From a virus: DNA of 34,070 nucleotides. Within the stretch, counting starts at the first letter, position 1, and each line of letters starts with the position of its first letter. The notes below the pieces were generated by a model. The model saw nothing but the letters and a program-made list of their open reading frames with translations, did no database searches and was not told the DNA's origin. Below, one piece after another: positions 458 through 13,518 of this stretch. The stretch lies in the IMG/VR virus record IMGVR_UViG_3300032093_000463, positions 1 to 34,070 of that record. One strand, written 5' to 3'. Both the position numbers and the translations under genes were made by a program.

Positions 458-477
458 ATATTAGTAGGCAGACACGC

Positions 478-506
478 TTGACACCTTGTGTCCCTGCTAC
501 TATCGT
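478..506 (+). promoter_or_regulatory. Sigma70-type promoter for the rightward early operon
   Basis: A perfect -35 box TTGACA (478-483) is followed after 17 bp by TATCGT (501-506), which fits the actinobacterial TAnnnT -10 pattern. GACAC (471-475) and GTGTC (488-492) are inverted around the -35 box, so a bound protein would block polymerase. Read on the minus strand, the -35 box forms part of TGTCAAG. This is the end of the L5 repressor operator as I recall it, but TTGACA alone accounts for most of that match. The transcript would run into the genes from 876 onward. Confidence 0.6.
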
Positions 507-1238: not shown

Positions 1239-1519
1239 GCGCGGCGACCCTGACACGGTGTGAGTGTGGGAACGTGGCCACCCCTGGCGGGGTGGCGTGT
1301 GAGTGGTGCGAGGCGCACGAGGACTGTCGCACCCCTGCCGGGGTGCGTGTGGGCCGGTCGCATATGGCAGGGACGGCTATCGCATGGTGCGAGGGGTGCG
1401 GTATGCGGTGGGGATATTGGGACTGTGCGTGTGACCTCGCGCATGAGTGCCCGCCGTGTGACTGTGTGTGTCATGACGGGGCAGGGAGCCATGATGAGGC
1501 GGCATGCTGGTGCCGTTAG
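1235..1519 (+). CDS. Cysteine-rich small protein
   Basis: This 94-residue protein starts with GTG inside the GTGA overlap with the upstream gene. It has 15 cysteines, arranged as CxC (9/11), CxxC (22/25), C31, CxxC (52/55), CxC (64/66), C72, then CxCxC (75/77/79) and CxC (91/93), with histidines nearby. Several zinc-ribbon or treble-clef-like sites are likely. I recognise no family. The translational coupling suggests that it is made together with the ArdC-like protein. Its stop codon TAG runs directly into the first copy of the repeated 12-mer. Confidence 0.7.
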   Translation: MSAATLTRCECGNVATPGGVACEWCEAHEDCRTPAGVRVGRSHMAGTAIAWCEGCGMRWGYWDCACDLAHECPPCDCVCHDGAGSHDEAACWCR

Positions 1520-1530
1520 TAGCATGCCAC
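1519..1530 (+). repeat. 12-mer GTAGCATGCCAC, copy 1
   Basis: An exact copy that begins in the last base of the preceding stop codon. GGCATGC at 1501-1507 is inverted relative to GCATGCC at 1522-1528. The GCCAC half can also pair with GTGG near 1556-1559, enclosing a GGCCC/GGGCC stem. It is followed by TAC, which gives GTAGCATGCCACTAC. Confidence 0.75.
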
Positions 1531-1567
1531 TACGCCCGGCCCTAACGGGTCGGGCCGTGGTGCTGGA

Positions 1568-1588
1568 CACCCGGCATGGGGCCGGGTG
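1568..1588 (+). repeat. Pre-start hairpin, copy B
   Basis: CACCCGGC and GCCGGGTG pair around the loop ATGGG. It ends 24 nt before the ATG at 1613 and just upstream of the AGGAGG binding site. The outer pairs differ from the other copies while pairing is kept, which argues that the structure is selected. Confidence 0.65.
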
Positions 1589-1612
1589 CCTTGCATCATG
1601 AGGAGGCACATG

Positions 1613-1813
1613 ATGGGCTGGATTGAAGTGCATATCGACACGGATAACGATGCTTTCGCGGGCGAGGATGGGCACCATGAGGTCGCCCGCATCTTCTCCT
1701 ATCTGGCGGAACGGTTCACGGCTGGCGATGTGCCTAACGGCATGCGTCTGCGGGATATCAACGGGAACCGTGTCGGTTCCGTGGAATACGACGACAACGA
1801 TGAGGAGGTTTAG
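1613..1813 (+). CDS. Hypothetical small acidic protein
   Basis: This 66-residue acidic protein begins MGWIEVHIDT and ends in an Asp/Glu-rich tail (YDDNDEEV). The start at 1613 has AGGAGG (1601-1606) six bases upstream; the ATG at 1610 and a GTG at 1586 are alternatives with poorer spacing. No family is recognised. The fold may be alpha/beta. The next gene follows within four bases, so the two are probably translated together. Confidence 0.65.
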   Translation: MGWIEVHIDTDNDAFAGEDGHHEVARIFSYLAERFTAGDVPNGMRLRDINGNRVGSVEYDDNDEEV

Positions 1814-1816
1814 ATC

Positions 1817-2245
1817 ATGGCTGGATACGTGTTTAATAGTGCGCCGGTTATCTATGCGTACACGGCGGCCGATGCACTGGCGGACGGGTTCCTAGTGTCG
1901 GTGCCGGAAGTGACGGCACGTGAGGCAGGGTTCACCATTCCCGTGGTGATGAGCCGGGGTGCGTGGGATGACTGTGTGACGTGGGATGAGGGGCCCGAGG
2001 GCAACGTAGACCCGGCTAAGCCTGCCACGGGGCAGGATGAGGCGGGCCGCTTGTGGGATGTGTTGTGGCTGGCAAGCCAAGCGGCACGGCGTGCCGCTGG
2101 TGATGACATGGCGGTGTTCGATGTGTTGCGGGTTCCGGCTTATGGCCGGGGCGTGACGGCTAAGCCTGTCAGACTGTGGGCCACTGTGGGCCCGGGTGAT
2201 GACGGTTCCCCACTGGTGACAATCATGCGGCCCGAGGACTACTAG
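1817..2245 (+). CDS. DUF6573-like protein
   Basis: This 142-residue protein matches what I remember of the DUF6573 family, found in actinobacterial plasmids and phages. It has an early segment on the pattern Y.AADALADGFLV.VPE, then TAREAGF, a W-DD-C-V-W stretch, GRLWDVLWLA near the middle, and a C-terminal segment on the pattern GPGDDGSPLVTIM.PEDY. Function is unknown. GAGGAGG precedes the ATG. Its presence beside an ArdC-like domain resembles the cargo of plasmids and integrative elements. Confidence 0.6.
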   Translation: MAGYVFNSAPVIYAYTAADALADGFLVSVPEVTAREAGFTIPVVMSRGAWDDCVTWDEGPEGNVDPAKPATGQDEAGRLWDVLWLASQAARRAAGDDMAVFDVLRVPAYGRGVTAKPVRLWATVGPGDDGSPLVTIMRPEDY

Positions 2246-2256
2246 CGGTCCCGATA

Positions 2257-2268
2257 GTTACATGCCAC
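2257..2268 (+). repeat. 12-mer variant GTTACATGCCAC, copy 2
   Basis: Ten of twelve bases match the consensus. Its GCCACAC (2264-2270) pairs perfectly with GTGTGGC (2277-2283) around TATGCG, forming a 7-bp hairpin directly after the element. It lies 11 bases beyond the stop codon of the upstream gene. Confidence 0.65.
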
Positions 2269-2332
2269 ACTATGCGGTGTGGCGGCCACGACTTAGCAGG
2301 CACCAGGGTGCGGGCCCCTGGCGTGGCACGTT

Positions 2333-2351
2333 GCCCGGCATAGGGCCGGGC
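2333..2351 (+). repeat. Pre-start hairpin, copy C
   Basis: GCCCGGC and GCCGGGC pair around the loop ATAGG. The hairpin ends 19 nt before the ATG at 2371 and abuts the AGGAGGAGG binding site. Confidence 0.65.
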
Positions 2352-2370
2352 ATGGCAGGAGGAGGCAGGC

Positions 2371-2745
2371 ATGGATGTGTTGAGGCAACCTGATGAGAGG
2401 CACGAGCGGGACCGCACGGTAACGCTTAGGTGGCGGACGGGCGAGATGGTGGCCGACGGGTACGGGCGTGAGGGTGAGGTCATCATCACGCTGGACGTAT
2501 CCCACGTCGGGTACGGCAAGCGGTACGTGGCTTCGCTGCGGCGGTCCACGGTGTCAGACGGGTGGGAGCGGTACACGATAGGGGATGGGGTGCAGGTGTA
2601 TTCCGAGCCGTGCGCACGGTTCAGCCGTAGCGGACTGGCACGTGCGCAACTAGCGGCGTGGGATGTGGTGCATGCGTATCAGGGTGATCACGCACTGGTG
2701 TGTGAGTTGGTGGCTCTTGCCAACCGTGAGCCTGTCGCTGCCTAA
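2371..2745 (+). CDS. Hypothetical early protein
   Basis: This 124-residue protein follows a very strong ribosome binding site (GGAGGAGG). It has a charged N-terminus with many Arg and Asp, a beta-rich middle on the pattern EVIITLDVSHVGYG, and an alpha-helical C-terminus rich in Ala and Val. No cysteine cluster, signal peptide or membrane segment is visible. No family is recognised. Codon use is GC-rich like its neighbours. It is flanked on both sides by the repeated intercistronic elements. Confidence 0.7.
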   Translation: MDVLRQPDERHERDRTVTLRWRTGEMVADGYGREGEVIITLDVSHVGYGKRYVASLRRSTVSDGWERYTIGDGVQVYSEPCARFSRSGLARAQLAAWDVVHAYQGDHALVCELVALANREPVAA

Positions 2746-2800
2746 CGGCAGCCGCCCCTACTAGAAGGCATCCCCGTGCGAGCCGGGGGAGGGGCACTGA

Positions 2801-2817
2801 CCCGGCATGGTGCCGGG
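2801..2817 (+). repeat. Pre-start hairpin, copy D
   Basis: CCCGGC and GCCGGG pair around ATGGT; counting the A/T closing pair, the stem is 7 bp. It ends 21 nt before the ATG at 2839, upstream of AAGGAGG. Confidence 0.65.
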
Positions 2818-2838
2818 CTATTGGCAAGGAGGCAAGCC

Positions 2839-3486
2839 ATGACAACGACAAGCATTGAGGGTACGGCAGTGGAGAACGTGACTGTGCTGGCGCTGGACGT
2901 GTCCGTGTTTCGGGATCTCGTAATGTCTGCGGCAGTGGCGGCAGGCAAGGACGACATACTGCCCACGCTGACGGGTATCCGGGTGGAATGGGACTCATTG
3001 AGTGTGCGCATGGTCGCCACTGACCGATTCCGCTTGGTCAAGGCGGAGTGGCTGAGTGCAAGCAACGTGCAGTCGGGTTCGGCGTTGGTGCCTGCCGGTG
3101 ATCTGGTGGCTTACGTAAAGACACTGCCTAAGCCTGCCCGATTCGGGCTGCCGCCCACCGTGGTGATTCACCCCGAGGATGGGCAGGTGCGGTTCACGTG
3201 TGTCACGCACGAGGGTGAAGTGAGTCGCACGATCCGTACGTTGGATGGTGAGTTTCCTAAGTATCAGTCACTCATCCCGACAGGGTTCACTGACCTGCCC
3301 GAGGAGGGTATCGCCATGAATCCTAAGTACGTGGCGGACGTGGCCAAGATGCCGGTCCCCAAGAACGGCGGGGTGCGGGTGCAGTTCACTGGCAGTGGCC
3401 GTCCGATGGTGTGGACACCTATGGCCCCGCTGGATAGCGGTGTGCAGTGGCTTTACCTCTTGATGCCCGCTCGGATCGGAGCGTAG
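2839..3486 (+). CDS. DnaN-like sliding clamp (shortened)
   Basis: This 215-residue protein resembles the DNA polymerase III beta subunit. The diagnostic stretch LPTLTGIRVEWDSLSVRMVA followed by TDRFRL (about 36-60) matches the conserved clamp motif that ends in aTDryRL. Later segments (RTLDGEFPKYQSLIP) match the start of a following clamp domain, and the C-terminus LYLLMPARIGA resembles the MPMRL end of bacterial DnaN. Bacterial clamps have three domains and about 370 residues, so about 40 percent is missing. Ring closure would then need a different oligomer, such as a trimer of a shorter unit. The ATG at 2839 is chosen because AAGGAGG lies nine bases upstream. It may recruit host polymerase or control another clamp-dependent step. 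Confidence 0.7.
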   Translation: MTTTSIEGTAVENVTVLALDVSVFRDLVMSAAVAAGKDDILPTLTGIRVEWDSLSVRMVATDRFRLVKAEWLSASNVQSGSALVPAGDLVAYVKTLPKPARFGLPPTVVIHPEDGQVRFTCVTHEGEVSRTIRTLDGEFPKYQSLIPTGFTDLPEEGIAMNPKYVADVAKMPVPKNGGVRVQFTGSGRPMVWTPMAPLDSGVQWLYLLMPARIGA

Positions 3487-3490
3487 GGCC

Positions 3491-3682
3491 ATGACTACGA
3501 CAGTGGACTTCGCCTACACCGTAACACTGGTGTGGGACTACGCAACGATGACAACGACAGTGAACGTCGAAGATAAGGACAGTGCCTTCGGTGCTGCCAT
3601 TGACCTAATCAACTCACAGTACGGGATTCCGTACTCGCTGCTGGGGTCCGCTGATGACGTGTTGGTGGAGTTGGCGGGCTGA
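3491..3682 (+). CDS. Hypothetical small protein
   Basis: This 63-residue protein starts four bases after the clamp gene stop. It has a beta-rich Thr/Val N-terminus, then a helix and a short acidic C-terminus (DDVLVELAG). There are no cysteines. No family is recognised. The tight spacing to the clamp-like gene suggests co-expression. Confidence 0.6.
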   Translation: MTTTVDFAYTVTLVWDYATMTTTVNVEDKDSAFGAAIDLINSQYGIPYSLLGSADDVLVELAG

Positions 3683-3685
3683 TTA

Positions 3686-3697
3686 GTAGCATGCCAC
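3686..3697 (+). repeat. 12-mer GTAGCATGCCAC, copy 3
   Basis: An exact copy three bases after a stop codon. CCACGG pairs with CCGTGG (3705-3710) around CTGGC. A pre-start-like half element (CCCCGGC + ATAGG, 3714-3725) follows. Its right arm (GGGGC, 3751-3755) is separated from it by an inserted hairpin, CCGTGG/CCACGG. Confidence 0.75.
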
Positions 3698-3788
3698 GGC
3701 TGGCCCGTGGTGGCCCCGGCATAGGCGTGACCGTGGTGCGAGTCCACGGCGGGGCACGCGCAATAAGGCGCAAGGAATGGAGGCAGTG

Positions 3789-4160
3789 ATGAGCACGGCA
3801 ACAATGCTTTACCACTGGGAAGACGAGCGCATCGCTGGTGAGCATGCGCTGGCTGAACGTATTGAGCAGGCGTTCACTGAGATTGAGGCAGTGATCGAAG
3901 ACGTGGACGCTATCGCTTGGGATTCGTGCCACAAGATTTACGTGAGCATGAACCCTGAGCAGACGGCACTGCTTGACGAGTACGGCTATGCGCCGTACCT
4001 AATCCGGCCCGTGGACGTGGAGACTGGGCAACTACTGACGATTCTCAGGTCTTGGTATGAAGATTCGTGCGGGCTTCGGTTCATTAGTGGGTGTGCTGGC
4101 GATCCGCTTGACACTGAGTGGATCACTTTCATCCCGCAGGTATTTATTGAGGCGGCGTGA
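3789..4160 (+). CDS. Hypothetical early protein
   Basis: This 123-residue acidic protein is rich in Glu and Asp in its first half (helical, pattern EQAFTEIEAVIEDVDAIAWD) and has aromatic and hydrophobic residues later. The ATG at 3789 is chosen over 3777 because TGGAGGC lies just upstream with proper spacing. No family is recognised. It contains three cysteines but no clear metal motif. It starts a run of tightly packed small genes with little or no space between them. Confidence 0.65.
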   Translation: MSTATMLYHWEDERIAGEHALAERIEQAFTEIEAVIEDVDAIAWDSCHKIYVSMNPEQTALLDEYGYAPYLIRPVDVETGQLLTILRSWYEDSCGLRFISGCAGDPLDTEWITFIPQVFIEAA

Positions 4161-4161
4161 C

Positions 4162-4368
4162 ATGGCTGTGATTACTAGAAGTGTGACGTTGAAGATCACG
4201 TTTGACACTGACGTGTGGCTGGACCCGCTGGCTTGGGACTGGTCCGATCTTGTGGGTGACGTGTGGGACGGCCCGACTGAGGGCCGCACGGTGCGGCTGG
4301 CTGGCATGCATCTTGATGATGAGGACATTCCGTGGGGAGAGGAGGCAAGTGATGCAGATGCTTCGTGA
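4162..4368 (+). CDS. Hypothetical small protein
   Basis: This 68-residue acidic protein is rich in Trp and Asp (motif WLDPLAWDWSDLVGDVWDG). It starts two bases after the upstream stop. The longer frame from 4057 is rejected because it runs through the upstream gene. The 3' end overlaps the next gene by 17 bases. No family is recognised. Confidence 0.6.
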   Translation: MAVITRSVTLKITFDTDVWLDPLAWDWSDLVGDVWDGPTEGRTVRLAGMHLDDEDIPWGEEASDADAS

Positions 4369-4537
4369 AGTGGTGACACATGAGGGCATTGTGTTTGAGG
4401 CGTGGCCGGAGCATGGCTGCTGGTATCAGCGTGGCCATGCCGACCAGTTGGGTGCACTGCACATGCCTATGGGTGTTGATGGTCGCCCCGTCTTTGAGGA
4501 CTTGGGTGAGGTTGAGGTTCGTTGGGAGGAGGCGTGA
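4352..4537 (+). CDS. Hypothetical small protein
   Basis: A 61-residue protein whose ATG at 4352 has GAGGAGG upstream inside the preceding gene. A GTG one codon earlier is also possible. It is beta-rich with a short aromatic stretch (FEAWPEHGCWYQ). No family is recognised. Its TGA overlaps the next ATG by one base. Confidence 0.6.
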   Translation: MQMLREVVTHEGIVFEAWPEHGCWYQRGHADQLGALHMPMGVDGRPVFEDLGEVEVRWEEA

Positions 4538-4674
4538 TGCATGAGTATTGGGTGCGGCTGGACGCATACGTGCAAGACAACACGCTAGATAACGCTTTGG
4601 AGCGTGCCGTTGATGCCCTATCGGGTATCGCTGTCGAAGTTCATGTAGTGGAAGGAGGGCAGACAGGTGATTGA
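4537..4674 (+). CDS. Hypothetical 45-residue protein
   Basis: The reading frame MHEYWVRLDAYVQDN... continues for 45 codons and stops at 4672-4674. The start is coupled through a TGATG junction, with GGGAGGAGG upstream. The sequence reads like an alpha/beta fold (strand, helix, strand: IAVEVHVVEGG). No family is recognised. It overlaps the next start by eight bases. Confidence 0.55.
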   Translation: MHEYWVRLDAYVQDNTLDNALERAVDALSGIAVEVHVVEGGQTGD

Positions 4675-4876
4675 AGCGATCACGTTCATCGTGTGCGCGT
4701 TCATCATCGGGCCAGCGATCTTCATGCTGGTCGATGAGTGGCGTGAGTTGCGGGCTGACCGTGACTTTTACAAGGAGTTCTATGAGCACATGCGTGCTTC
4801 GGAGATTGACGCAAGCAAGCAGCGGCACCCTGCCGTTGCCGTAAGTAGCATGCCACGACTGAGGAGGATCAAGTGA
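4667..4876 (+). CDS. Small single-pass membrane protein
   Basis: This 69-residue protein starts with GTG after GGAGGG. Residues about 3-22 form one hydrophobic segment (ITFIVCAFIIGPAIFMLV), followed by a charged helical, probably cytoplasmic, tail rich in Arg, Glu and Lys. No family is recognised. Small membrane proteins in phage early regions sometimes act in superinfection exclusion or host takeover, but nothing here shows which. The last codons contain an exact copy of the repeated 12-mer, so that element is translated here. Confidence 0.65.
   Translation: MIEAITFIVCAFIIGPAIFMLVDEWRELRADRDFYKEFYEHMRASEIDASKQRHPAVAVSSMPRLRRIK
4845..4856 (+). repeat. 12-mer GTAGCATGCCAC, copy 4
   Basis: An exact copy, but inside the 3' end of a coding region, 20 bases before its stop and just ahead of the GAGGAGG site of the next gene. 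I see no pairing arm for the GCCAC half here. The sequence rather than the hairpin may therefore be the constant part. Confidence 0.75.
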
Positions 4877-5067
4877 GTGTCCGTGAGTTGGCGAAGTTCA
4901 TTGACAAGGAGTGCTTGCTGCCGGTGGATGGGATGGAGTTCCCGGTGAAGGTGGCTGACGTGAAGCAGTCCTACGGGAACCTGCGGTGCCTGGTGCAGCC
5001 CATTGGTGGCACGGGTGGTGCATGGGTGGATGCGTCGCGGCTTGGTATCACGGGGGAGGACGCATGA
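4873..5067 (+). CDS. Hypothetical small protein
   Basis: A 64-residue protein with GTG start in a GTGA overlap and a GAGGAGG site upstream. The pattern of strands (EFPVKVADVKQSYGNLRCLVQPIGG, split here by turns) and the final WVDASRLGI suggest a small beta barrel, SH3- or KOW-like, but this is only an impression. No family is recognised. It is coupled by ATGA to the next gene. Confidence 0.6.
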   Translation: MSVRELAKFIDKECLLPVDGMEFPVKVADVKQSYGNLRCLVQPIGGTGGAWVDASRLGITGEDA

Positions 5068-5276
5068 GTAGGGCGAAGATGGAGTTGAACTTTGAGCATC
5101 GTGAGTTCGTGGCGATGCTGGATTGCCTGGTGCTTGGCATCACGGAGGCGGTGTCTGACATGGAGTTGGAAAGGCCAACACGTGTGGAGCCTGGCGATGT
5201 GTTGCAGGCAATACGTATTGCGGAGCACATGACGGAGGCGATCAGGACCGGGAGGATTCATGACCACGTGGGCTGA
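5064..5276 (+). CDS. Hypothetical small helical protein
   Basis: A 70-residue, mostly helical protein with evenly spaced Leu, Met and Ile. The ATG at 5064 overlaps the upstream stop (ATGA) and has GGAGGA before it. The longer frame from 4986 runs through the upstream gene and is rejected. No family is recognised. It overlaps the WhiB-like gene by 17 bases, so the two are probably translated in sequence. Confidence 0.6.
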   Translation: MSRAKMELNFEHREFVAMLDCLVLGITEAVSDMELERPTRVEPGDVLQAIRIAEHMTEAIRTGRIHDHVG

Positions 5277-5763
5277 TCGTTGCCGTGAGGAAGGATGCAC
5301 CGAAGGTATCTATGGGGATCGTTACTGCCAGGCACACTACTGGGATAACCGCCATGCGGTGCTCTTGGAGGCGATGGAGGGCACGCAGCCGACACACCCT
5401 GACTTGCTGCCGGTGAAGCCGTTACGTGTGGAGTGGGGGAAGACCGGGTGGGCGGCATACATGCCGCTGCCTGAGCCTCGCAACGATCACCTGTGCCGGG
5501 ATCATCCGGATGACTTCTTCGCTGAGGAGAAGGATCGTGCGTCCACGTCTACGGAGAAGTGGAAGCGGGCGATGGTGTCGTGTATGCGGTGCCCGAGCCG
5601 GGTGCCGTGTGCCGAGTACGGCATCGCTCACTCTCGTGACTTCGGTATTTGGGGTGGCACGACACCGAAGGACAGGAAGCGCATCCTTGCGGTGCGTGGC
5701 CAGGTGTTTGTTGAGTTGCATGCGGCTTGGGGTAGGGATGACATGAAGAAGGAGGCGTCATGA
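5260..5763 (+). CDS. WhiB-like iron-sulfur transcription regulator
   Basis: This 167-residue protein carries the WhiB signature: C79, then C108xxC111xxxxxC117, followed by the G[VI]WGG turn (FGIWGG, 128-133) and a basic tail (TTPKDRKRI) that contacts DNA. WhiB proteins hold a 4Fe-4S cluster, bind the sigma factor of actinobacterial RNA polymerase and reprogram promoters. Phage members can repress host whiB genes or block infection by related phages. This one has an extra N-terminal motif, C8-x4-C13...C23xxH26, that looks like a small zinc finger, making it longer than the usual 80-130 residues. GAGGATTC precedes the ATG. It is coupled by ATGA to the next gene. Confidence 0.88.
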   Translation: MTTWADRCREEGCTEGIYGDRYCQAHYWDNRHAVLLEAMEGTQPTHPDLLPVKPLRVEWGKTGWAAYMPLPEPRNDHLCRDHPDDFFAEEKDRASTSTEKWKRAMVSCMRCPSRVPCAEYGIAHSRDFGIWGGTTPKDRKRILAVRGQVFVELHAAWGRDDMKKEAS

Positions 5764-6095
5764 GGCCGCTGCCGAGCATGATCAACAAGGTGGCGAAGCG
5801 CCTGGATGAGCCAGCCGATGATGTGAATGGACTGGCGAAGGAGATTGTGGCCCTCATCTATGAGGCGTGGGCTAATCAAGGGCATTACATCGTGGTGGTC
5901 ACGGAACCTAGCGGGCTTTGGCATGCGTGGGGTCCGTACGCCACGGTGAAGGAGGCACACAAGGCTATCGGTGATCCGATTATTGCCTGCCGTGCTGGTG
6001 CAAGGGGTGTGCTGCTGAAACTGCACAAGGACGTGCAGGCTTTCCTAGATGCCGAGGTCGATGGGGCAGGGGAGCCTGACGATAGTGCCGCATGA
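5760..6095 (+). CDS. Hypothetical protein, last gene of early operon
   Basis: A 111-residue protein starting in an ATGA overlap with the WhiB-like gene. It has a helical N-terminal third, a central stretch of strands (HYIVVVTEPSGLWHAWGPY) and an acidic Gly/Asp-rich end. No family is recognised. The 3' end overlaps the convergent minus-strand gene by about 50 bases. The two operons therefore meet without an evident terminator, which could cause transcriptional interference. Confidence 0.65.
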   Translation: MRPLPSMINKVAKRLDEPADDVNGLAKEIVALIYEAWANQGHYIVVVTEPSGLWHAWGPYATVKEAHKAIGDPIIACRAGARGVLLKLHKDVQAFLDAEVDGAGEPDDSAA

Positions 6096-6269
6096 AGCGC
6101 ACTGCCCTTCTAGCACCCACAGGGACGGTTCCCCCTGGTCGAAAGACACGAGAGTATGGAAAAGGTTGGAGCCGCAGGCACATTCATGGACCGGCCCAAG
6201 CATGCGAAGGTCATCCTTCGCTGCGGGCGGGGTGTGCCATGCGGCAACAACCTCAGTCGGTGCGTTCAT
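6045..6269 (-). CDS. Zinc-ribbon-like small protein
   Basis: A 74-residue protein with CxC (HECACGSN) and CxxC (QCASCGT) pairs separated by about 25 residues, fitting a zinc ribbon. It ends with TVRLPCPID-like strands (IVRLPCPIDLGI). It is the last gene of the leftward operon. Its ATG overlaps the upstream stop (ATGA). Similar short zinc-ribbon proteins occur in many actinophages without known function. It overlaps the 3' end of the rightward early operon on the opposite strand. Confidence 0.7.
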   Translation of the reverse strand: MNAPTEVVAAWHTPPAAKDDLRMLGPVHECACGSNLFHTLVSFDQGEPSLWVLEGQCASCGTIVRLPCPIDLGI

Positions 6270-6409
6270 TCCGGTGTCCCCATGCAGCAGTTGTTATCAG
6301 GACAGACATGAGTCCATTTGGCTTTCTCATCGGCCCTGACCTTCGTGATGAGGTCGCATCGGCAGTTGTACGGGTCGTCGTCCGCATCGCACAGGGGGTC
6401 GTGGGTCAC
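6266..6409 (-). CDS. 47-residue Cys-rich protein
   Basis: A GTG start in a GTGA overlap with the upstream gene and an ATGA overlap with the downstream one bracket a 47-codon frame, beginning MTHDPLCDADDD. It has six cysteines (7, 16, 18, 36, 41, 42), with CxC and CC pairs and an acidic N-terminus. It probably binds metal. The double coupling and lack of any gap make this a credible gene despite its size. No family is recognised. Confidence 0.6.
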   Translation of the reverse strand: MTHDPLCDADDDPYNCRCDLITKVRADEKAKWTHVCPDNNCCMGTPE

Positions 6410-6612
6410 GACTTGATACCCCGCACCTTCTCGGCCACTTCCCACAACACCTCAGCCGTATCCTTGTCGTCCATCACGGCAGCCCACTGCATGATGATGG
6501 TGCAGGCTTCCTCTTTCATGGTGAGCCTGCCCAGTTTCTTTGCCGACTCATACGGGTCCACTGACAGGCGAAGATCACCGGGCATGCTGCACCCACTGGT
6601 GGCCGGTGCCAT
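6406..6612 (-). CDS. Hypothetical small helical protein
   Basis: A 68-residue protein, mostly helical after residue 20 (ESAKKLGRLTMKEEACTI, then WAAVMDDKDTAEVLWEVAEK). The first ATG at 6612 overlaps the upstream small gene by 38 bases; the internal ATG at 6585 would shorten the overlap to 11, and I cannot decide between them because neither has a good ribosome binding site. No family is recognised. Confidence 0.55.
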   Translation of the reverse strand: MAPATSGCSMPGDLRLSVDPYESAKKLGRLTMKEEACTIIMQWAAVMDDKDTAEVLWEVAEKVRGIKS

Positions 6613-6721
6613 GCTGACAGGTGCAGGACTGTGGATAGTCGCACGTGTTGTGCAGTGTGCGGGCCACGTTGTAGGTGCCGATAGCGTTCACGTCACCCGC
6701 TGACCGGCAGTTGCGACACAT
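6575..6721 (-). CDS. 48-residue zinc-finger-like protein
   Basis: The frame begins MCRNCRSAGDVNAIG and has CxxC at 2/5 and later C27...C33xC35 with histidines (HGTGHQW), consistent with one zinc site. The ATG overlaps the upstream TGA (TGATG), and GGAGGA lies about 11 bases before it. No family is recognised. It is one of four consecutive very small genes at the end of the replication operon. Confidence 0.55.
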   Translation of the reverse strand: MCRNCRSAGDVNAIGTYNVARTLHNTCDYPQSCTCQHGTGHQWVQHAR

Positions 6722-6951
6722 CACAGCGGGTCCTCCCCCCACTTAGTGAACGCATCCTGCGTCCACACGGAATGGTTCTTGCCTTCCGTCAGGCCAAGCG
6801 CAAGCGGAAACAGGATGCTGCCCAGGTTGGCGTACAGGTCTTCCGGATGAGACTTACGTTCAGCCTCACCCTTCCCATACACCTCTATGAAAGCCCGCTC
6901 CACGAGCACGAGGTAGTCGTGCAGCGTGATGCCCGTTCTCGTCATGCTCAC
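6721..6951 (-). CDS. Hypothetical small protein
   Basis: A 76-residue protein with GTG start in a GTGA overlap; GAGGAG lies five bases upstream. Helical N-terminal half (LHDYLVLVERAFIEVYG), charged middle, and a hydrophobic stretch (LGSILFPLALGL) too short to be a sure membrane segment. No family is recognised. Confidence 0.6.
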   Translation of the reverse strand: MSMTRTGITLHDYLVLVERAFIEVYGKGEAERKSHPEDLYANLGSILFPLALGLTEGKNHSVWTQDAFTKWGEDPL

Positions 6952-7085
6952 AGGTACTCCTCATCTTCATTCGGCCACACGTCATTCATGTCCGACAAGG
7001 TGCGCAGCATGTCCGCTGCAGCCACACCCACATAGATGCCCGCAACGAGAGCGATGCTGACCACCGTGAACTTCACCCAGTCCAT
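6948..7085 (-). CDS. 45-residue membrane protein
   Basis: The frame begins MDWVKFTVVSIALVAG. One membrane segment spans residues about 5-24, followed by an acidic tail ending NEDEEYL. The ATG lies inside the end of the sigma-like gene (13-base overlap), and the stop overlaps the next GTG (GTGA). Function is unknown. A small membrane protein beside a sigma-like regulator could be an anchor or regulator, but nothing shows this. Confidence 0.65.
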   Translation of the reverse strand: MDWVKFTVVSIALVAGIYVGVAAADMLRTLSDMNDVWPNEDEEYL

Positions 7086-7756
7086 GTCCGCCCCCCGTCA
7101 TAGGTGTTGCGGGTGTCGGCTTGGGCTTTAGCGTTGGAGCGATGCACCCTGCGTGTCAGATCCCACGGGGAATCTCCACCGAGATAGTCCATGATCTTCA
7201 CTGTCGCCTTGACAACACGCTTGCGTACCGCCTCAGCAGACACGTCATCCTGGTCAGCGATCTCCTGCAACGTCATGCCATGCCGGTAACGCATCTGCAA
7301 GGCACGCTCCTCATCCGTGGACAAGGTGCGCAGCGCCGCTGACACGTCAGCGAGCATCGCCATGCGCGAGCCACCCTCACTGGGGATAGACTTGTGCCGG
7401 ATCTCCTGCTCATCCCCACCACTGGACGCAGCCCACGACTCCACATCCCACACGTCAGGCAGCAACGTTTCCAGCACGGCCAAGTGGTAGAAGTATTGGT
7501 CGCTCACGGAACCACTGGATCGTGTGCGTTCGTTCAGCACATACTGCTGGCAGTTGCGCAGCATCACCGTGTACAGCAGGTTCTTCATGTCGGGGTCAGC
7601 GGACCAGTCCAGTACGTCATTCTTGTTGGCCGCGATCCATTCAAAGTTCACGGACACAAGTTCGTCTTCGGGAATGATCTGCCGGTGCGACTTGGCTACC
7701 CGCTTAGCCACGGCCCGGCCCATCTTCAATGCCGAATCGGGCACGTCCCATGTCAT
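7073..7756 (-). CDS. Sigma-70-like (region 4) transcription factor
   Basis: This 227-residue protein has a C-terminal helix-turn-helix of sigma region 4 type at about 140-195: LSTDEERALQMRYRHGMTLQ, then EIA, and a recognition helix containing SAEAVRKRVVKA. The N-terminal part (helical, pattern NEWIAANKNDVLDW-like) may be a degenerate region 2. Such proteins redirect host RNA polymerase to phage promoters; a stand-alone activator of late genes (RinA-like) is the main alternative. Its ATG overlaps the phosphoesterase stop (ATGA). The basic C-terminal tail after about 200 has no assigned role. Confidence 0.7.
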   Translation of the reverse strand: MTWDVPDSALKMGRAVAKRVAKSHRQIIPEDELVSVNFEWIAANKNDVLDWSADPDMKNLLYTVMLRNCQQYVLNERTRSSGSVSDQYFYHLAVLETLLPDVWDVESWAASSGGDEQEIRHKSIPSEGGSRMAMLADVSAALRTLSTDEERALQMRYRHGMTLQEIADQDDVSAEAVRKRVVKATVKIMDYLGGDSPWDLTRRVHRSNAKAQADTRNTYDGGRTWTG

Positions 7757-8496: not shown

Positions 8497-8920
8497 CGTT
8501 CTCCTTGCTTAGAGGCGTCATCTGGTTACGTGCGGAGTTCCCTGGCCAGTTACCGTCAATGTTCATCACGCCAATCAAGGCGTAGTTGCCGAGGTCAAGC
8601 CAACTGTCACGCATCCGTTCCCCGTACAGGTCGGCTTCGCCTTTGCGGAGAATGTTCTTGATGCGTTCCATCTTGTCCGACATGCGCACAATCAAGGCAG
8701 TGAGCGGGTCGGGGTATGCGTTAGCGATGTTCAGCGGCCCATAGTCACGATGCCTGCCAAGCATCAGCAGCAAAGCCTCACGGTATGTTTCAGCGGCTAC
8801 TGCCTCAATGGAGGGATACGCACTAGCAGTGTCCCGTTGCGGCGGTCCATGCGTTGCACTTCCAACCCAATAGAGCGGATCGCGTCGATCAACCGGGCCC
8901 AGTCCTCGTCGGTCACTCAC
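8471..8920 (-). CDS. Nmad1 (DUF1599)-like protein
   Basis: The conserved part begins near the segment ETYREALLLMLGRHRDYGPL, followed by NIANAYPDPLTALI and RMSDKMERIKNIL, and ends with a segment on the pattern SWLDLGNYALIGVMNIDGNW. This resembles the nucleotide-modification-associated domain 1 family (DUF1599), often encoded by phages that modify nucleotides or bases and related in pattern to MazG-type helical enzymes. The start is uncertain. GTG at 8920 has AAGGTGG six bases upstream, but the first 36 residues then read poorly and overlap a better-looking 39-codon frame (8797-8916). A later TTG at 8773 or ATG at 8764 would truncate the first helix. Confidence 0.55.
   Translation of the reverse strand: MSDRRGLGPVDRRDPLYWVGSATHGPPQRDTASAYPSIEAVAAETYREALLLMLGRHRDYGPLNIANAYPDPLTALIVRMSDKMERIKNILRKGEADLYGERMRDSWLDLGNYALIGVMNIDGNWPGNSARNQMTPLSKENDEPLGGNP
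8797..8916 (-). CDS. Candidate 39-residue ORF overlapping the Nmad1-like start
   Basis: From a GTG in a GTGA overlap with the primase Toprim gene, the frame MTDEDWARLIDAIRSIGLEV continues for 39 codons. It reads as a helix followed by strands (NGTLLVRIP) and has strongly GC-rich third positions. The alternative frame over the same bases (the N-terminus of the Nmad1-like call) is poorer in this respect. Either this is a real mini-gene, or a frameshift joins it to the Nmad1-like domain. Confidence 0.42.
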   Translation of the reverse strand: MTDEDWARLIDAIRSIGLEVQRMDRRNGTLLVRIPPLRQ

Positions 8921-9548
8921 TGACACCCACCTTGCGGCGCACCTCAGCGGGACCAAACTTGAGGAACACTTCATTCACATCCATGCCATCCGGCATGAAG
9001 ATCGGGGTGGCTCCTTGCACACTGGCGGCAATCTTCTTACCGAACTCCCGGCCAGCGGCGTCACCATCACACAGCACAAACACCTTCCTCTCCTCAAACA
9101 GCAGCGGGTAATGCGATTGCCAGTTCGACGCACCCGGCACACCCACACTGGGCAGGCCACACAGCCCGTCAGCGACAATGCAGTCCATTTCGCCTTCCGT
9201 GATGCACACGAATGGGCTTGGCTTGAGCAGGTTGCCGACACCGAACAGGCGGGTGTGTGAGCCAGGCTTCGACAGGTACTTGGCTCTGGCTTCGCCACTG
9301 ATGTCACGGAACCGCATGTCGATCACGCCACCGTTAGGGGTGACGAACGGTATGGCAAGCCTGCCAATCATGTCCGTGTCACCCGGTTGCGCGTTCGCCA
9401 CCGTTACGAAGCCGAGGCGGTATGTACGCGCGGTTTCCAGTGGTATGCCGCGAGCCGCCAGATACGACTCGGCTAGATGTATGTCCGCTTCGTATGCTTG
9501 AGTCGCCTGCTCCAAAGAGTTGCGCTCCGATACGCTTGGCATCTGCAA
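8913..9548 (-). CDS. DnaG-type primase, Toprim part
   Basis: This 211-residue protein has the primase core that follows the zinc domain. A helix leads into YLAARGIPLETARTYRLGFV (about 29-48); later come the Toprim motifs TEGEMD (catalytic Glu), GVPGASNW and CDGDAAGR (Asp pair and basic residue). The start is TTG at 9548 with AAGGAG exactly six bases upstream; an in-frame ATG is two codons further on. It lies in a different frame from the zinc-finger gene and overlaps it by 170 bases. The two parts may be separate subunits or may be joined by frameshifting. Confidence 0.8.
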   Translation of the reverse strand: MQMPSVSERNSLEQATQAYEADIHLAESYLAARGIPLETARTYRLGFVTVANAQPGDTDMIGRLAIPFVTPNGGVIDMRFRDISGEARAKYLSKPGSHTRLFGVGNLLKPSPFVCITEGEMDCIVADGLCGLPSVGVPGASNWQSHYPLLFEERKVFVLCDGDAAGREFGKKIAASVQGATPIFMPDGMDVNEVFLKFGPAEVRRKVGVSE

Positions 9549-9765
9549 AGTTCACTCCTTCGTGGTGCATGATCACGTTGTATGAGTCGCCCTTGAAGTC
9601 GCAGGCCATACAGCGGATCACCTGCAGGTCATAGTTCACGCGGCATGAGGCGTGCCGTTCGTCATGCACGAGGCAGCGCACACTGCGCCAGCCAGGATTC
9701 TCGGCGGGTGGTTGCCAGCCGTAGTGATCTAGCACCGAGTAGAGGTCAGGCTTATCGGTGGTCAT
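9379..9765 (-). CDS. DnaG-type primase, zinc-binding part
   Basis: This 128-residue protein has a CHC2-type zinc finger: C31xxH34, C52xxC55 (CLVHDERH and CMACDFKGDS). It is followed by the usual helix NVIMHHEGVNFADAKRIGAQ that links to the catalytic core. After about residue 80 the frame loses similarity and is Ser/Arg-rich, because the primase continues in another frame. The finger recognises the initiation site on single-stranded DNA. Its ATG overlaps the end of the resolvase-like gene by 14 bases. Confidence 0.78.
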   Translation of the reverse strand: MTTDKPDLYSVLDHYGWQPPAENPGWRSVRCLVHDERHASCRVNYDLQVIRCMACDFKGDSYNVIMHHEGVNFADAKRIGAQLFGAGDSSIRSGHTSSRVVSGGSRHTTGNRAYIPPRLRNGGERATG

Positions 9766-10120
9766 GAAGCCACCAGTCGTACTCTTGGATGACGTAGGCC
9801 CTACCCACTCCGGCCATGCGGCGCTTCGCCAGCACGACTGGGATCACAATGTTGGGGTCCAGGCGGTTTAGGGTGGCGTAGTTGTCGGCTTCGATAGCCG
9901 CCTCGGTGACCCATCCGGCTAGGTCTAGGGCCCGCTCAGCCTTGCACTCAAAGACATAGTGCACGGGGGTCACCGCGCGCGCGGGTACACGGATCACTTT
10001 GTCGCCTATGTCTTTGGCCCCGTTGGGGGACAGGCGTGTTACGTCGAAGCCTTGTTCGATGTCATAGTCCCGAGTGTCGGTTTCCCACTTCGACCCTTTG
10101 CGCTTGCTGGGATTACTCAC
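9752..10120 (-). CDS. Holliday-junction-resolvase-like nuclease
   Basis: A 122-residue protein of PD-(D/E)xK type. The N-terminus is basic (SNPSKRKGSKWETDTRDYD, with E13), then SPNGAKDIGD (D37) and VFECKAE (E58-x-K60), matching the arrangement of archaeal-type Hjc and related phage resolvases. These cut four-way junctions and branched replication intermediates. GTG start within a GTGA overlap with the helicase gene. Alternative: a VRR-type nuclease. The position between helicase and primase favours a role in replication-coupled recombination. Confidence 0.7.
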   Translation of the reverse strand: MSNPSKRKGSKWETDTRDYDIEQGFDVTRLSPNGAKDIGDKVIRVPARAVTPVHYVFECKAERALDLAGWVTEAAIEADNYATLNRLDPNIVIPVVLAKRRMAGVGRAYVIQEYDWWLHDHR

Positions 10121-10899
10121 GCTGCCTCACCTAGATCGCTGATGGTCATGGTGGCGGGCTCCCATGACAGCCACGTCACGTCCTGCCCGCCAGGGGAGGC
10201 GGGACCGTAACGGTTCTTGACGGCGCACACGCCGATGAAACCGGGCTGCTCGTTGGTGAGAGTCATGATGAGCGCGGGGACGGCACTGATCTTGCCTTGC
10301 AGTGACCACAGGGGAGGGGCTTGACCGCCGAACGACTCCTGCCGGGTGTGATGAAGCACAAGCACACTGGCGTTGGTGTCCCGCGCAAACCAGCGAAGTT
10401 CCCTCATCAAAGTTTGTAGTGCCTGCCACGTGTCACCCGTGTCGAAGGCCACGTCTTGCGCGTTGTCGATCACGATGAGGGCGGGGTCAGTGCCGAACTC
10501 ACGGAAAGCGTTGATGCTGTTCTCAATGTATTCCAGCGTGGGGGCACTGTTCGTTTCCACGGCCACGTGGGAAAAGCCCTGCAACACTTGGCTGGCCCAC
10601 ACTGGATCATTGGTGCGTGCCGATTCGGCGGACTGCTGATCCATGCCGGTGAGCATGGATAGGGCACGGATCTCCACGTTCTCCCGTGTCGTATCGGCGC
10701 TGAAATACAAGGTGGGTAGACCGCACCGGACAGCGAGGGCCAGAGCAATACTGGACTTCCCGCTGCCCGGTGCGGACCCGATCATGCTCAACTCACCACG
10801 GCGCAGGGTGATGCCACGTTCCGCCAGGGAAGGGAACATGCCAGGCAGGGAGGCAACCGCCTGGCGAGGCATCAACACGGCTTGATGAAGGAAGAGCAT
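10117..10899 (-). CDS. DnaB-like/RecA-fold replicative ATPase
   Basis: A 260-residue single-domain ATPase. Walker A GSAPGSGKS (41-49), Walker B LIVIDN (141-146), and a sensor-like stretch SVLVLHHTRQESFGG near 178-192 fit the C-terminal domain of DnaB-type helicases. The N-terminal primase-interaction domain is absent, as in many actinophage helicases. With the primase and resolvase next door it forms a compact replication module. The start at 10899 has only a weak AGGGA upstream, so a start a few codons later (ATG at residue 10) is possible. Confidence 0.75.
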   Translation of the reverse strand: MLFLHQAVLMPRQAVASLPGMFPSLAERGITLRRGELSMIGSAPGSGKSSIALALAVRCGLPTLYFSADTTRENVEIRALSMLTGMDQQSAESARTNDPVWASQVLQGFSHVAVETNSAPTLEYIENSINAFREFGTDPALIVIDNAQDVAFDTGDTWQALQTLMRELRWFARDTNASVLVLHHTRQESFGGQAPPLWSLQGKISAVPALIMTLTNEQPGFIGVCAVKNRYGPASPGGQDVTWLSWEPATMTISDLGEAA

Positions 10900-10911
10900 G
10901 ACGACTATTCC

Positions 10912-11298
10912 CTAGACGCTGATCTTCTTGTCGCACTGCTGGCCGCGAGGCTGAGCGCAGGCGTAGAAGGCGCGGTAGGGCTTGCCGGTTGCCTTGCTGA
11001 CACCGGCCTGGACGAAGCGCATGGGGATGCCGCAGTTGCACAGGTGCTCATCACCCTGAACGGGTGCAGGTGCAGCGGGCTGCGGTGGCTGCTGTGCCGG
11101 TGCTGCCACGGGCACATGCTGTGCCACGGTGGAGGCGGGGACGATCTGTGACTCAATGGCCACGATCTTTGCCAGGAACTCGGGGAACGCATCCAACTGG
11201 TCAGCGAAGTCGCCGCCGTTCTCAGCGTAAATGTTGAGCAGGGTTCCTGCCGGGGTCTTGAAGTTCGCCTGATAGGCGATGCCTTGCGTAGCGGACAC
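10912..11298 (-). CDS. Protein with C-terminal zinc ribbon (possible ssDNA-binding)
   Basis: About 128 residues. The N-terminal half is beta-rich and starts SATQGIAYQANFKTPAG, the middle is an Ala/Pro-rich linker (about 55-80), and the C-terminal part is a zinc ribbon (CNCGIPMRF...YRAFYAC...C) resembling GRF or topoisomerase-type fingers. Such architecture suits a DNA-binding replication accessory protein; I infer this partly from its neighbours, a helicase and a RecB-like nuclease. GTG at 11298 is preferred since TAGGAG lies eight bases upstream; the ATG at 11316 contains that site. Confidence 0.6.
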   Translation of the reverse strand: MSATQGIAYQANFKTPAGTLLNIYAENGGDFADQLDAFPEFLAKIVAIESQIVPASTVAQHVPVAAPAQQPPQPAAPAPVQGDEHLCNCGIPMRFVQAGVSKATGKPYRAFYACAQPRGQQCDKKISV

Positions 11299-11327
11299 GG
11301 ACGGTACTCCTAACATGGTAGATGCTA

Positions 11328-12128
11328 CTAACGGGAAAACGAAGGGGCAGTCCCGCCGACTGCCACGCAGTGCTCACGCACTGAGCATGACCCGCACATG
11401 GCGGTGACATGAGGCACGAACACCTCATCCTCAATGGCTTCGCGTGCCTTCCCGAACCACTGCGCGAGCAGGTCGGGGGTGTAGTGCAGCAGGCTGGCTT
11501 GGGGTGTGAGTGTGGCGCTGCGCGCCATGTAGTACCTGCCGATTGAAGGCATCACCTCTAGCGCCTGGTAGGCACCGTGCGCGTAGGTGCCCAACTGCAG
11601 GGTCCACGCAGGGGTGTGGCTGCCCGTCTTGATGTCATGGACTTCCACCTCCCCATCAGGGTTCGCCATTACCCGGTCGATAAAGCCACGGATCTCCACT
11701 CCACCGATGCTGATTTCAAAGGCGGTTTCCACACCGAGCAGGGTCCAGCCGGTTGTCAGCAGTGTGTGCATGTGCTGCGCATATGAACGCACCATGTCTA
11801 GGCCGTTCTGTTCCCACCACGTGCGGTCTTCCTTGTTGGGCCACTGCTTGCTAACTCGGCCACCGGCTCGCACATCGTTGAAGTCAGTGACGGTAGCGAT
11901 CTGCTTGTCCCACGCCTGCTGCCACGCCTCTTCCGGCGTGTCAATGGCACCCGTGTCCAGCAGTTCAGTCGCCTCATGCACGGCTGAACCACCCAGCAGA
12001 TACCAGGCTTGCTGCTGATGCACGCCGACCACTTTCTGCAGGCGGTACTTCTCGCCGCAGGTAAGCCACGATTCCAGGCTTGAGAAAGACAGGTACTTGC
12101 TGCCTGTCAATGCTTCCAGGCTACTCAC
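11328..12128 (-). CDS. RecB/Cas4-like PD-(D/E)xK exonuclease
   Basis: A 266-residue nuclease. It opens with SFSSLESWLTCGEKYRL (C24), then GSAVHE (H51), GFIDRV (D151), VHDIKTG (D165-x-K167) and QLGTYA (Q178, Y182), the motif series of the RecB nuclease family. The final MCGSCSVREHC gives C245, C248 and C254, which together with C24 match the four-Cys iron-sulfur clasp of AddB/Cas4 enzymes. It probably resects DNA ends during phage recombination. GTG start in a GTGA overlap with the 89-residue gene upstream. The last codons lie about 30 bases from the next gene. Confidence 0.85.
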   Translation of the reverse strand: MSSLEALTGSKYLSFSSLESWLTCGEKYRLQKVVGVHQQQAWYLLGGSAVHEATELLDTGAIDTPEEAWQQAWDKQIATVTDFNDVRAGGRVSKQWPNKEDRTWWEQNGLDMVRSYAQHMHTLLTTGWTLLGVETAFEISIGGVEIRGFIDRVMANPDGEVEVHDIKTGSHTPAWTLQLGTYAHGAYQALEVMPSIGRYYMARSATLTPQASLLHYTPDLLAQWFGKAREAIEDEVFVPHVTAMCGSCSVREHCVAVGGTAPSFSR

Positions 12129-12394
12129 TCTGCCTTCTCCAACCTGAGCACGAACACGTCGAAGTTGCCGTTACTGGCGTGGTCCCACCAGTCAACGCCT
12201 TGACCTTCCATGACGTAGCCCTGCTCTTCGTAGGTGTCGATGATGCGGTCGTAGTCGTCGCTCTCCCAGTCACCGAAGCCGATGATCACGAGGATGAGGC
12301 CAACCTTGACGTGGGCCAGCCAGCCAGCCTGCCCACTGGGGGCTTCGTCCTGCACGTTCAGAGCGGTGATCTTGCCCACATTGGTAGCATGCAT
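12125..12394 (-). CDS. Hypothetical protein, first gene of leftward operon
   Basis: An 89-residue acidic protein starting at the ATG at 12394, six bases after AGGGGG; an adjacent ATG at 12397 is possible. The longer frame from 12751 is rejected because it runs through a terminator and non-coding DNA. Contents: a strand-rich part (KVGLILVIIGFGDWE), a helix (DDYDRIIDTYEEQGYV) and a final strand (FDVFVLRLEKAE), a ferredoxin-like pattern. No family is recognised. It is coupled to the nuclease downstream. Confidence 0.7.
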   Translation of the reverse strand: MHATNVGKITALNVQDEAPSGQAGWLAHVKVGLILVIIGFGDWESDDYDRIIDTYEEQGYVMEGQGVDWWDHASNGNFDVFVLRLEKAE

Positions 12395-12494
12395 CATGTT
12401 CCCCCTAAAGTCCAATCGTTCGCCAAGGAATCCGTACGCAAGTTGAGCGCAGATCCCAACATCGCGCAAGGGGCATAAACGGCGTGTCCCGCCT

Positions 12495-12521
12495 GTCACA
12501 CGATTGGACATTTCCGAAATG
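12495..12521. promoter_or_regulatory. Operator candidate upstream of the leftward operon
   Basis: CATTTC and GAAATG flank a single C (12509-12521), a perfect 13-base inverted repeat. GTCACACGAT directly before it (12495-12504) is shared with 450-459 near the early promoter. CGATTGGAC occurs here and again at about 12415 (on the other strand). The region lies about 100-130 bp upstream of the first gene of the leftward operon. I could not place a convincing -35/-10 pair. Confidence 0.35.
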
Positions 12522-12580
12522 CCGTGACTAGACTGTCCTTTCGTGGGGGGTTGGTAAGGGAAAAGCCCTGCAAACAAACA

Positions 12581-12612
12581 GAAAAATAGCCCCGGCCCAT
12601 GAGGGCCGGGGC
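12581..12612 (-). terminator. Intrinsic terminator after the repressor gene
   Basis: A stem of ten GC pairs (12589-12598 with 12603-12612) with a 4-base loop is followed on the minus strand by CTATTTTTC. It lies 31 bases beyond the stop of the repressor-like gene and isolates that gene from the leftward operon. Confidence 0.85.
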
Positions 12613-12642
12613 ATAAACATTTGCAGTTACGAACATGCAGGC

Positions 12643-13098
12643 TCAGTCTTCTGGGTAATGCAGAAACACCGGCTTCCGTCTGATCGGAATGTCTTTCGGG
12701 TCTGACGCTTCCCTCGGCACGTAAATGATACGTGGCACTGAATCCGCACAATAGGCGACAACGGCGTCCTGTTCGCCCAGTTTGTCCAGCCAGTTGTTGA
12801 GGCGGGTGTTCTCATCCGGCGTCAGTTCCTCACCGGCACGCCGCCTGCCCAGGAGCCTGAGCATGCGAATCCCGTAGTGCTTCAAGTCTTTCCCGTTCAA
12901 CCGCCACGGGATTTCCTCTGAGTAGCGGCGCTTCTCCTCCGTCAGCCCAGCCCTTGATAGGGCCACGCTGACTGCCGCACGGGACACCGGGTATCCGGTG
13001 TCCTTCGACACCTGCTGAGCAATCTCCGTATGCGTCATGCCCGCTTGTACCATTTCTAGCAGTTTGTCCGCATTGGGAAGTATCTGTGGTCTTGCCAT
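12643..13098 (-). CDS. Immunity repressor-like HTH protein (L5 gp71 type)
   Basis: This 151-residue protein has a helix-turn-helix at about 21-50 (MTHTEIAQQVSKDTG, then a recognition helix with SRAAVSVALSRAG). The rest resembles, as I remember it, the L5-type mycobacteriophage repressor: a IPW motif after the HTH, a basic helical stretch, RLNNWLDKLGEQDAVVAY and then IIYVPREASDPKD-IPIRRK. That family binds 13-bp asymmetric operators and many further sites (stoperators) as a monomer and keeps lysogens silent. The ATG at 13098 is chosen for AGGAGG seven bases upstream; the longer frame runs through the tRNA. It is monocistronic, followed by a strong terminator. Confidence 0.65.
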   Translation of the reverse strand: MARPQILPNADKLLEMVQAGMTHTEIAQQVSKDTGYPVSRAAVSVALSRAGLTEEKRRYSEEIPWRLNGKDLKHYGIRMLRLLGRRRAGEELTPDENTRLNNWLDKLGEQDAVVAYCADSVPRIIYVPREASDPKDIPIRRKPVFLHYPED

Positions 13099-13124
13099 AA
13101 TGTTGCCTCCTGCGGGCATTGTTG

Positions 13125-13172
13125 CATGACCCTGGGGGTGAACACTACAAACAGCAAGCAAATGACTGGTCA
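13125..13172 (-). promoter_or_regulatory. Possible repressor promoter
   Basis: On the minus strand just after the tRNA, TTGACC is followed after 18 bases by TGTAGT, with the repressor ATG about 40 bases further on. The -35 match is good (5 of 6), the -10 moderate. Co-transcription with the tRNA is the alternative. Confidence 0.35.
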
Positions 13173-13175
13173 AAG

Positions 13176-13261
13176 TGTCCGAGGCGGGACTTGAACCCGC
13201 ACAGCCCGTAAAGGCCACTGGCACCTCAAGCCAGCGCGTCTGCCAATTCCGCCACCCGGAC
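13176..13261 (-). tRNA. tRNA-Leu (anticodon GAG)
   Basis: A complete 86-base class II tRNA. Acceptor GTCCGGG pairs with CTCGGAC (one G-U pair). The anticodon stem CTGGC/GCCAG closes the loop TTGAGGT, giving anticodon GAG. A long variable arm (GGCC...GGGC) is typical of leucine tRNA. The T arm is GCGGG-TTCAAGT-CCCGC. The discriminator is A and CCA is not encoded. It lies between the repressor and the integrase, a usual place for attP; its 3' half could be the crossover core shared with a host tRNA gene. Confidence 0.93.
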
Positions 13262-13518
13262 GAGTGCCGCATCAGGGTAGCAAGTCCAAAGAGCAGATAG
13301 ACTAGGGGGCGTCAACTAAACAGCGGGCCGCTAGTAACTGATCCCCACAGGTTCAACATGGTTCATGTACAGGCATTGGAAAGGGCAGTGTTTGCCCACG
13401 TCAAAGCCGCATATCTTTTATGAACCCAACTGCAAGAGTGTGGCATGCTACGAAAGCCACACACGGCAGGCTGTGGCAGGTTACAATCGGCCCAAAGAGC
13501 ACCCCGGAGGAGGCTTCA
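13262..13518 (+). promoter_or_regulatory. Integrase upstream region (candidate attP and control)
   Basis: 257 bases without a convincing gene. A weak promoter-like pair TTGCCC...TTTTAT lies near 13391-13420. The hairpin GTGTGGC/GCCACAC at 13438-13462 carries an inverted 12-mer. Recombinase arm sites may lie here, but I see no clear repeats of the integrase-arm type. A GGAGGAGG ribosome binding site ends the region. Confidence 0.4.
13438..13462 (-). repeat. Inverted copy of the 12-mer in a perfect hairpin (copy 5)
   Basis: GTGGCATGCTAC (13440-13451) is the exact reverse complement of GTAGCATGCCAC. GTGTGGC (13438-13444) pairs with GCCACAC (13456-13462). It is the only exact copy outside the early operon and sits about 57 bp before the integrase start. 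Confidence 0.75.

Follow-up and report, generated by a model that had tools for sequence, protein, structure and literature searches.

Dispersed repeats of an uncultured actinobacterial-type phage as probable stoperators of a cluster A-type immunity repressor

The immunity repressor of cluster A phages is a monomer that reads an asymmetric site with two domains. Its sites, the stoperators, which in L5 follow the consensus GGTGGcTGTCAAG, number more than twenty across the genome. A reversed site is reported to lose its effect in L5 (PMC9283540), and the R4 system of Streptomyces phages has also been published as a repressor-stoperator system (PMC10276819). Rhodococcus phages of cluster CA carry TGTCTATTGTCAA, a 13-bp repeat with up to 20 intergenic copies, mostly in one orientation, together with an immunity repressor (PMC5721134), and cluster K mycobacteriophages carry the SAS/ESAS elements, short repeats upstream of non-structural genes, some of them with inverted repeats (PMC3203893). 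Here we consider a 12-base word, GTAGCATGCCAC, that recurs in the virus record IMGVR_UViG_3300032093_000463, a stretch of 34,070 bases from an uncultured actinobacterial-type phage, the whole of which is called the window below. Comparison of sequences leads us to suggest that the word is an operator or stoperator, the binding site of the phage's own repressor (12643-13098), and we put the probability of this reading at roughly 0.78.

The initial annotation of the window had listed exact copies of the word at 1519, 3686 and 4845 on the plus strand, an inverted exact copy at 13440-13451 and a copy matching at 10 of 12 positions at 2257, all of which we recover. A scan with position weight matrices of 12 or 20 columns, at a threshold of one expected false match, returns exactly six strong sites in the window: these five and a sixth at 13473-13484 on the minus strand, which had been overlooked. 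The reported placement at stop codons also holds (Table 1), five of the six strong copies lying in gaps or on a stop codon and one, at 4845, inside a gene end. All four strong copies in the operons are sense-oriented, and the strong copies end 16-103 bases ahead of the next start codon. Both variant copies (2257 and 13473) retain the TGCCAC half of the word and differ in the other half.

Could these copies be due to chance, or represent an unrelated short repeat in GC-rich sequence? There are just six strong copies, and repeats of GC-rich sequence abound in the left 900 bases. The chance expectation of about 0.004 given previously is correct for one pre-chosen 12-mer. With up to two mismatches allowed, 15 matches are found against 4.6 expected in shuffles (four of the 15 are second readings, on the opposite strand, of near-palindromic sites already counted), and none of 100 shuffles reaches 15; sub-words of 10 and 11 bases from GTAGCATGCCAC rank among the window's most over-represented words. 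Taken with the non-random positions and the independent equivalents in relatives described below, these shuffle tests leave chance with a practically negligible probability.

A search of viral contigs with the extended 15-mer returned 26 stretches, the relevant ones belonging only to the window's phage and its close kin and the rest having no aligned DNA. The 1519 site is kept in the related contig L010 although the open reading frame (ORF) 1235-1519 is strongly divergent right up to the site, and the 3686 site is kept in L011 despite the absence of ORF 3491-3682; the sites may be recombination borders. Conservation of sites in L010 is uninformative alone, because entire gaps are about 90-95% identical.

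What would bind these sites? Profile comparison and a predicted structure both place the protein encoded at 12643-13098 in the cluster A immunity repressor family. Its nearest named family is phrog_3929 (E value 1.4e-17), and it shares 33% identity with gp31 of phiHau3, annotated as similar to L5 gp71. A PDB search by the single sequence gave no useful match; when 29 homologues are combined into a profile, it matches 7R6R, a structure of the cluster A repressor, over near full length (E value 2.8e-8). With the AlphaFold model (predicted local distance difference test, pLDDT, 94.7), Foldseek places 7R6R at rank 1 (E value 8.6e-5), and VIA-align scores it at Z 10.6 over 132 residues, the next structure, at 6.5, being confined to the helix-turn-helix. 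Three DNA-contacting residues of the cluster A repressor, R45, K81 and R108, are reported to be essential (PMC9283540); in the profile alignment Arg40 corresponds to R45, Arg99 to R108 and Tyr75 to K81. We predict that the window protein binds the repeated sites. In bacterial genomes, a scan found no more than 13 homologues of the repressor, all distant, and it pointed to no host for the phage.

Viral contigs scanned with the repressor alignment yielded 78 new loci with related repressors, and intergenic 8-mers were tested against a first-order model. One relative has 17 intergenic copies of GTTTAAAC where 0.21 are expected, and strongly enriched intergenic words occur in many others: CATGTTGC, ACATGACA, GTGTAAACA, GCAACATGACAC, ACATGACAC, CATGCACC, CATGCAAC, AATGCAAGG and AATGTCAA. 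Also enriched is CATATTGC, the reverse of GCAATATG, and the words of the Streptomyces group are GTGTGATA or CTTACACA. Common to many is the frame ATG.CA or something near it, represented by CATGCCAC in the window and by CATGACAC, TATGACAC, CATGCAAC and TTAAACAC elsewhere; we do not claim an alignment of the phiHau3 word to this frame, because its orientation must be reversed.

The layout recurs as well. Most relatives have sites in the integrase-repressor gap, where the copies cluster; in those sharing the frame, operons also carry sites, mostly in sense, at stop codons or where a stop adjoins the next start. Between co-directional genes, 39 of 44 sites run along transcription (p = 1.4e-7) in nine shared-frame genomes including the window, a restriction chosen after seeing the data; pooled over all genomes with an arbitrary motif strand, the count is an uninformative 54 versus 53. 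The genome G007, whose repressor is 40% identical, displays the window's layout with another word: its early operon carries copies in sense, and four more precede the integrase on the opposite strand. GCCGGC words in the same genome were rejected, being mostly coding; its GCAATATG word fits. At the exonuclease stop junction, the window (with the weak copy at 11317), G007 and L133 each carry the word of their own lineage. In the relatives by terL, G008-G012, which have no repressor found on the contig, a de novo search gave no convincing word.

Does the word change with the repressor? Seeds for motif refinement were partly hand-chosen, and the blind test takes the top intergenic 8-mer of each genome, which for the window is an unrelated GC-rich word. 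In blind Mantel tests word similarity correlates with repressor identity over 28 genomes (rho 0.30, p = 5e-5) and over the 15 nearest ones (p = 0.038). With the window's real word, the partial correlation of the repressor against seven other shared proteins is 0.24-0.48 for six of them (sigma factor, DnaB, exonuclease, WhiB and two others) and 0.12 for the integrase; the other genes, with the repressor held constant, reach 0.12 or below. Word similarity appears to track repressor similarity, the repressor being the best predictor among the shared genes tested, and both kinds of correlation are indications because the genome pairs are non-independent.

These correlations also bear on two readings that dispense with the repressor. 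The copies might be promoter elements for the phage sigma factor or WhiB, each starting a gene some 15-100 bases downstream: both genes are present, the copies stand in sense orientation upstream of genes, and TAGCAT looks like a -10 element. No conserved -35-like element is seen at a fixed distance, however, sites overlap start codons in some relatives and are inverted in the integrase-repressor gap, and the partial correlations of sigma factor and WhiB with the repressor held constant are only 0.06 and 0.11, leaving this a slim prospect. Alternatively, arm-type sites of the integrase, or sites for excision, replication or partition, would agree with the two copies that precede the integrase gene by 35-68 bp, next to a tRNA-Leu that is itself a possible attachment site, and among the 15 genomes having an integrase, integrase identity comes close to the repressor in accounting for the word. 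Such a function would leave unexplained both the stop-codon copies in the early and replication operons and the similar arrangement seen in Streptomyces phages that use serine integrases, and we regard it as very unlikely.

Several further observations weigh against binding by the repressor, as does the non-independence of the genome pairs. The exact copies come close to being palindromes, with 10 of their 12 positions palindromic, and lack a plain asymmetry; among relatives, sites are asymmetric or, in G006, palindromic. The advantage of the repressor over the integrase as a predictor is small; L121, L126 and L154 are off the shared frame or orientation, and the top word of L142 seems unrelated. 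The excess of sites right at stops is modest (24 of 44, versus 37% for random intergenic positions, p = 0.015). The matrix scan found no strong site in the late genes (15-34 kb) of a record that lacks part of the genome, and the presumed early promoter has just an 11/15 candidate, with about 7 such matches expected by chance in the window.

The initial annotation had also proposed RNA processing or attenuation, citing co-varying arms around the copies. Pairing is real at three copies, GCCACAC being able to pair with GTGTGGC downstream of the 2257 site and CCACGG with CCGTGG at 3686, yet of the five leaders just the one at 1519 folds better than its shuffles (z of -4.0, against -0.5, +0.5, +2.0 and -0.7 for the others, at 2257, 3686, 4845 and 13440); the equivalent of the 1519 leader in L010 has z of -4.7. 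A stronger case is found in G006, where the word lies within a stem of 13 pairs common to five early leaders, with 97% of cells paired and six of the 13 pairs changed on both sides, a figure that none of 500 shuffles matches; the remaining copies in this genome have no such stem. If the word acted as a leader element on termination, processing or translation of the mRNA, it would be conserved through pairing. Against this stand the four window leaders that fold no better than shuffles, the 4845 copy in a coding region with no partner arm, the words found in the integrase-repressor gap on one strand or the other, those that G006 has outside hairpins, and the tracking of the repressor protein by the word. 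We find a purely RNA-based function improbable, and for the window overall it is unsupported. The hairpin copies of G006 keep in view a combined role, in which, in this lineage, the stoperators of the early leaders are also RNA hairpins and the repressor's DNA site works jointly with a structured leader, for instance with repressor-stalled polymerase being released at the hairpin or the leader being cut there; this we hold to be unlikely, too. Each of the five early leaders of G006 (L103:16481-18416, minus strand) ends, after the word-bearing hairpin, in a AGAGAGAGA purine run before the start codon. In the window, a hairpin ACCCGGCATnGnGCCGGG occurs at 1569-1586, 2333-2350 and 2800-2817, immediately ahead of the ribosome-binding site in three early genes.

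How could the repressor act at its presumed sites? In the integrase-repressor gap we lean towards an effect on initiation, and in the operons towards one on elongation, both roles being inferred from L5 and R4. In a lysogen, repressor on the two gap sites would control initiation there, and repressor on the sense sites at stop codons of the early rightward operon (1519, 2257, 3686 and 4845) would block passing RNA polymerase, as it probably would at the exonuclease-stop site 11317. With elongation blocked, leaky lytic transcription would not be continued and the virus would stay dormant. The loss of effect on reversal in L5 fits the orientation bias of the sites.

The promoter-like sequence at 478-506 is the inferred early rightward promoter, and the weak candidate at 461 may be its operator. 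The weak candidates come from a looser 15-column comparison, in which chance alone would give about 6-7 matches of such quality over the window; in gaps and gene ends, 9 are observed versus a mean of 0.7 with permuted words. The candidate at 12381 points against transcription and is doubtful. Upstream of the promoter-like sequence lies a palindrome, GTGTGACGTAGGTCACAC (439-456, plus strand), whose arms are kept in L010 and L011 and whose centre changes; it is possibly the operator of another regulator.

Further features of the window concern its genes and the extent of the record. Between repressor and integrase lies a complete tRNA-Leu (GAG) at 13175-13261 on the minus strand, the sole match of an Rfam search and possibly the attachment site; a search of phage records for close relatives of the early DNA likewise gave only a tRNA match. 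An apparent tRNA 3' end is present in the equivalent gap of G006 and G007, and contig L036 starts at a point matching window position 13160. The early operon encodes an ArdC N-terminal-domain protein (876-1238) and a DnaN-like sliding clamp (2839-3486), both on the plus strand. Dense TTGCC/GCCTTGCC-like repeats occupy about 220-420 at the left end, where indels distinguish the window, L010 and L011. The record is incomplete, since in L010 and L011 a terminase gene stands immediately left of the window's equivalent.

Table 1. Positions of the repeated sites, weak candidates and main genes in the window.
Feature	Position	Strand	Remarks
Strong site GTAGCATGCCAC	1519..1530	+	first base is last base of TAG closing ORF 1235-1519; also in L010, L011
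Strong site GTTACATGCCAC, 10/12	2257..2268	+	12 bases past stop of ORF 1817-2245
Strong site GTAGCATGCCAC	3686..3697	+	4 bases past end of ORF 3491-3682
Strong site GTAGCATGCCAC	4845..4856	+	within end of ORF 4667-4876; next gene from 4873
Strong site GTAGCATGCCAC, inverted	13440..13451	-	integrase-repressor gap; also in L034, L036
Strong site GTAACCTGCCAC, 10/12	13473..13484	-	33 bp from 13440 copy, 35 bp before integrase start; conserved in L036
Weak candidate TTAGTAGGCAGACAC, 11/15	461..475	+	just upstream of promoter-like match; identical in L010, L011
Weak candidate TTAGTAGCATCTACC, 11/15	11317..11331	-	over exonuclease stop codon; sense-oriented
Weak candidate TTGGTAGCATGCATC, 12/15	12381..12395	+	over start of leftward operon's first gene
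Promoter-like TTGACA-17-TATCGT	478..506	+	only such match in 1-6800; conserved in L010, L011
Early operon	876-6095		rightward
WhiB protein gene	5260-5763		
Second operon	about 12397 down to 6406		leftward; repressor gene precedes
Phage sigma factor gene	7073-7756		
PD-(D/E)XK / Cas4-like exonuclease	11328..12128	-	second gene after repressor, as in phiHau3
Repressor gene	12643..13098	-	151 amino acids, phrog_3929; homologue of cluster A immunity repressor 7R6R
Tyrosine integrase	13519..14565	+	
Late genes	14877-34065		leftward

If the sites are indeed bound by the repressor, prophage silencing by repressor and stoperators would extend to uncultured phages with tyrosine integrases. The repressor family of these phages is related to a repressor that binds asymmetric sites as a monomer, and its repressor/site pairs, at 30-55% protein identity, would provide material for reading and testing the evolution of DNA specificity. 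The hairpin-embedded copies of G006 pose a testable question of how elongation stops.

Among the described systems, the SAS elements of cluster K lie no more than a few bases from start codons and have ribosome-binding complementarity, whereas the window sites follow stops, 16-103 bases before the next start, and are not repeats at a start codon with Shine-Dalgarno complementarity. The repeat of Rhodococcus cluster CA differs in sequence, and a search for a DNA relationship between these phages and the window found none. With L5 and cluster A (TipsytheTRex 7R6R) the window shares a homologous two-domain repressor, sites in short gaps oriented with transcription, one of them beside the repressor gene, and a small gene followed by a Cas4-family gene after the repressor. 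The repressor homology is distant, however, and the window has fewer sites, none of them strong in the late genes; its site sequence is another one, near-palindromic in the exact copies, and the operator of the early promoter is weak or absent. With R4 and phiHau3 (Arquatrovirinae) it shares the repressor PHROG and the order of repressor, small gene and exonuclease, and phiHau3 likewise has dispersed oriented sites at gene ends; the phiHau3 site is GTGTGWTAGnnnGAC, in about 20 copies that include structural genes, and its integrase (annotated at 37153-39174) is a different one. Given the few sites, none strong in the late genes, and no clear early-promoter operator, the window would therefore represent a variant of the L5/R4 system rather than a plain member. 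The earlier comparison with L5-type stoperators draws good support from repressor homology, from the relatives' words in the same layout and from the covariation of word and repressor. The suggestion of an undescribed type does not hold as to mechanism, since a repressor-stoperator system of R4 type has already been reported and phiHau3, of the same PHROG, has dispersed oriented sites: such a mechanism has been described in phages of mycobacteria and of Streptomyces, and what is new is this site sequence and this lineage.

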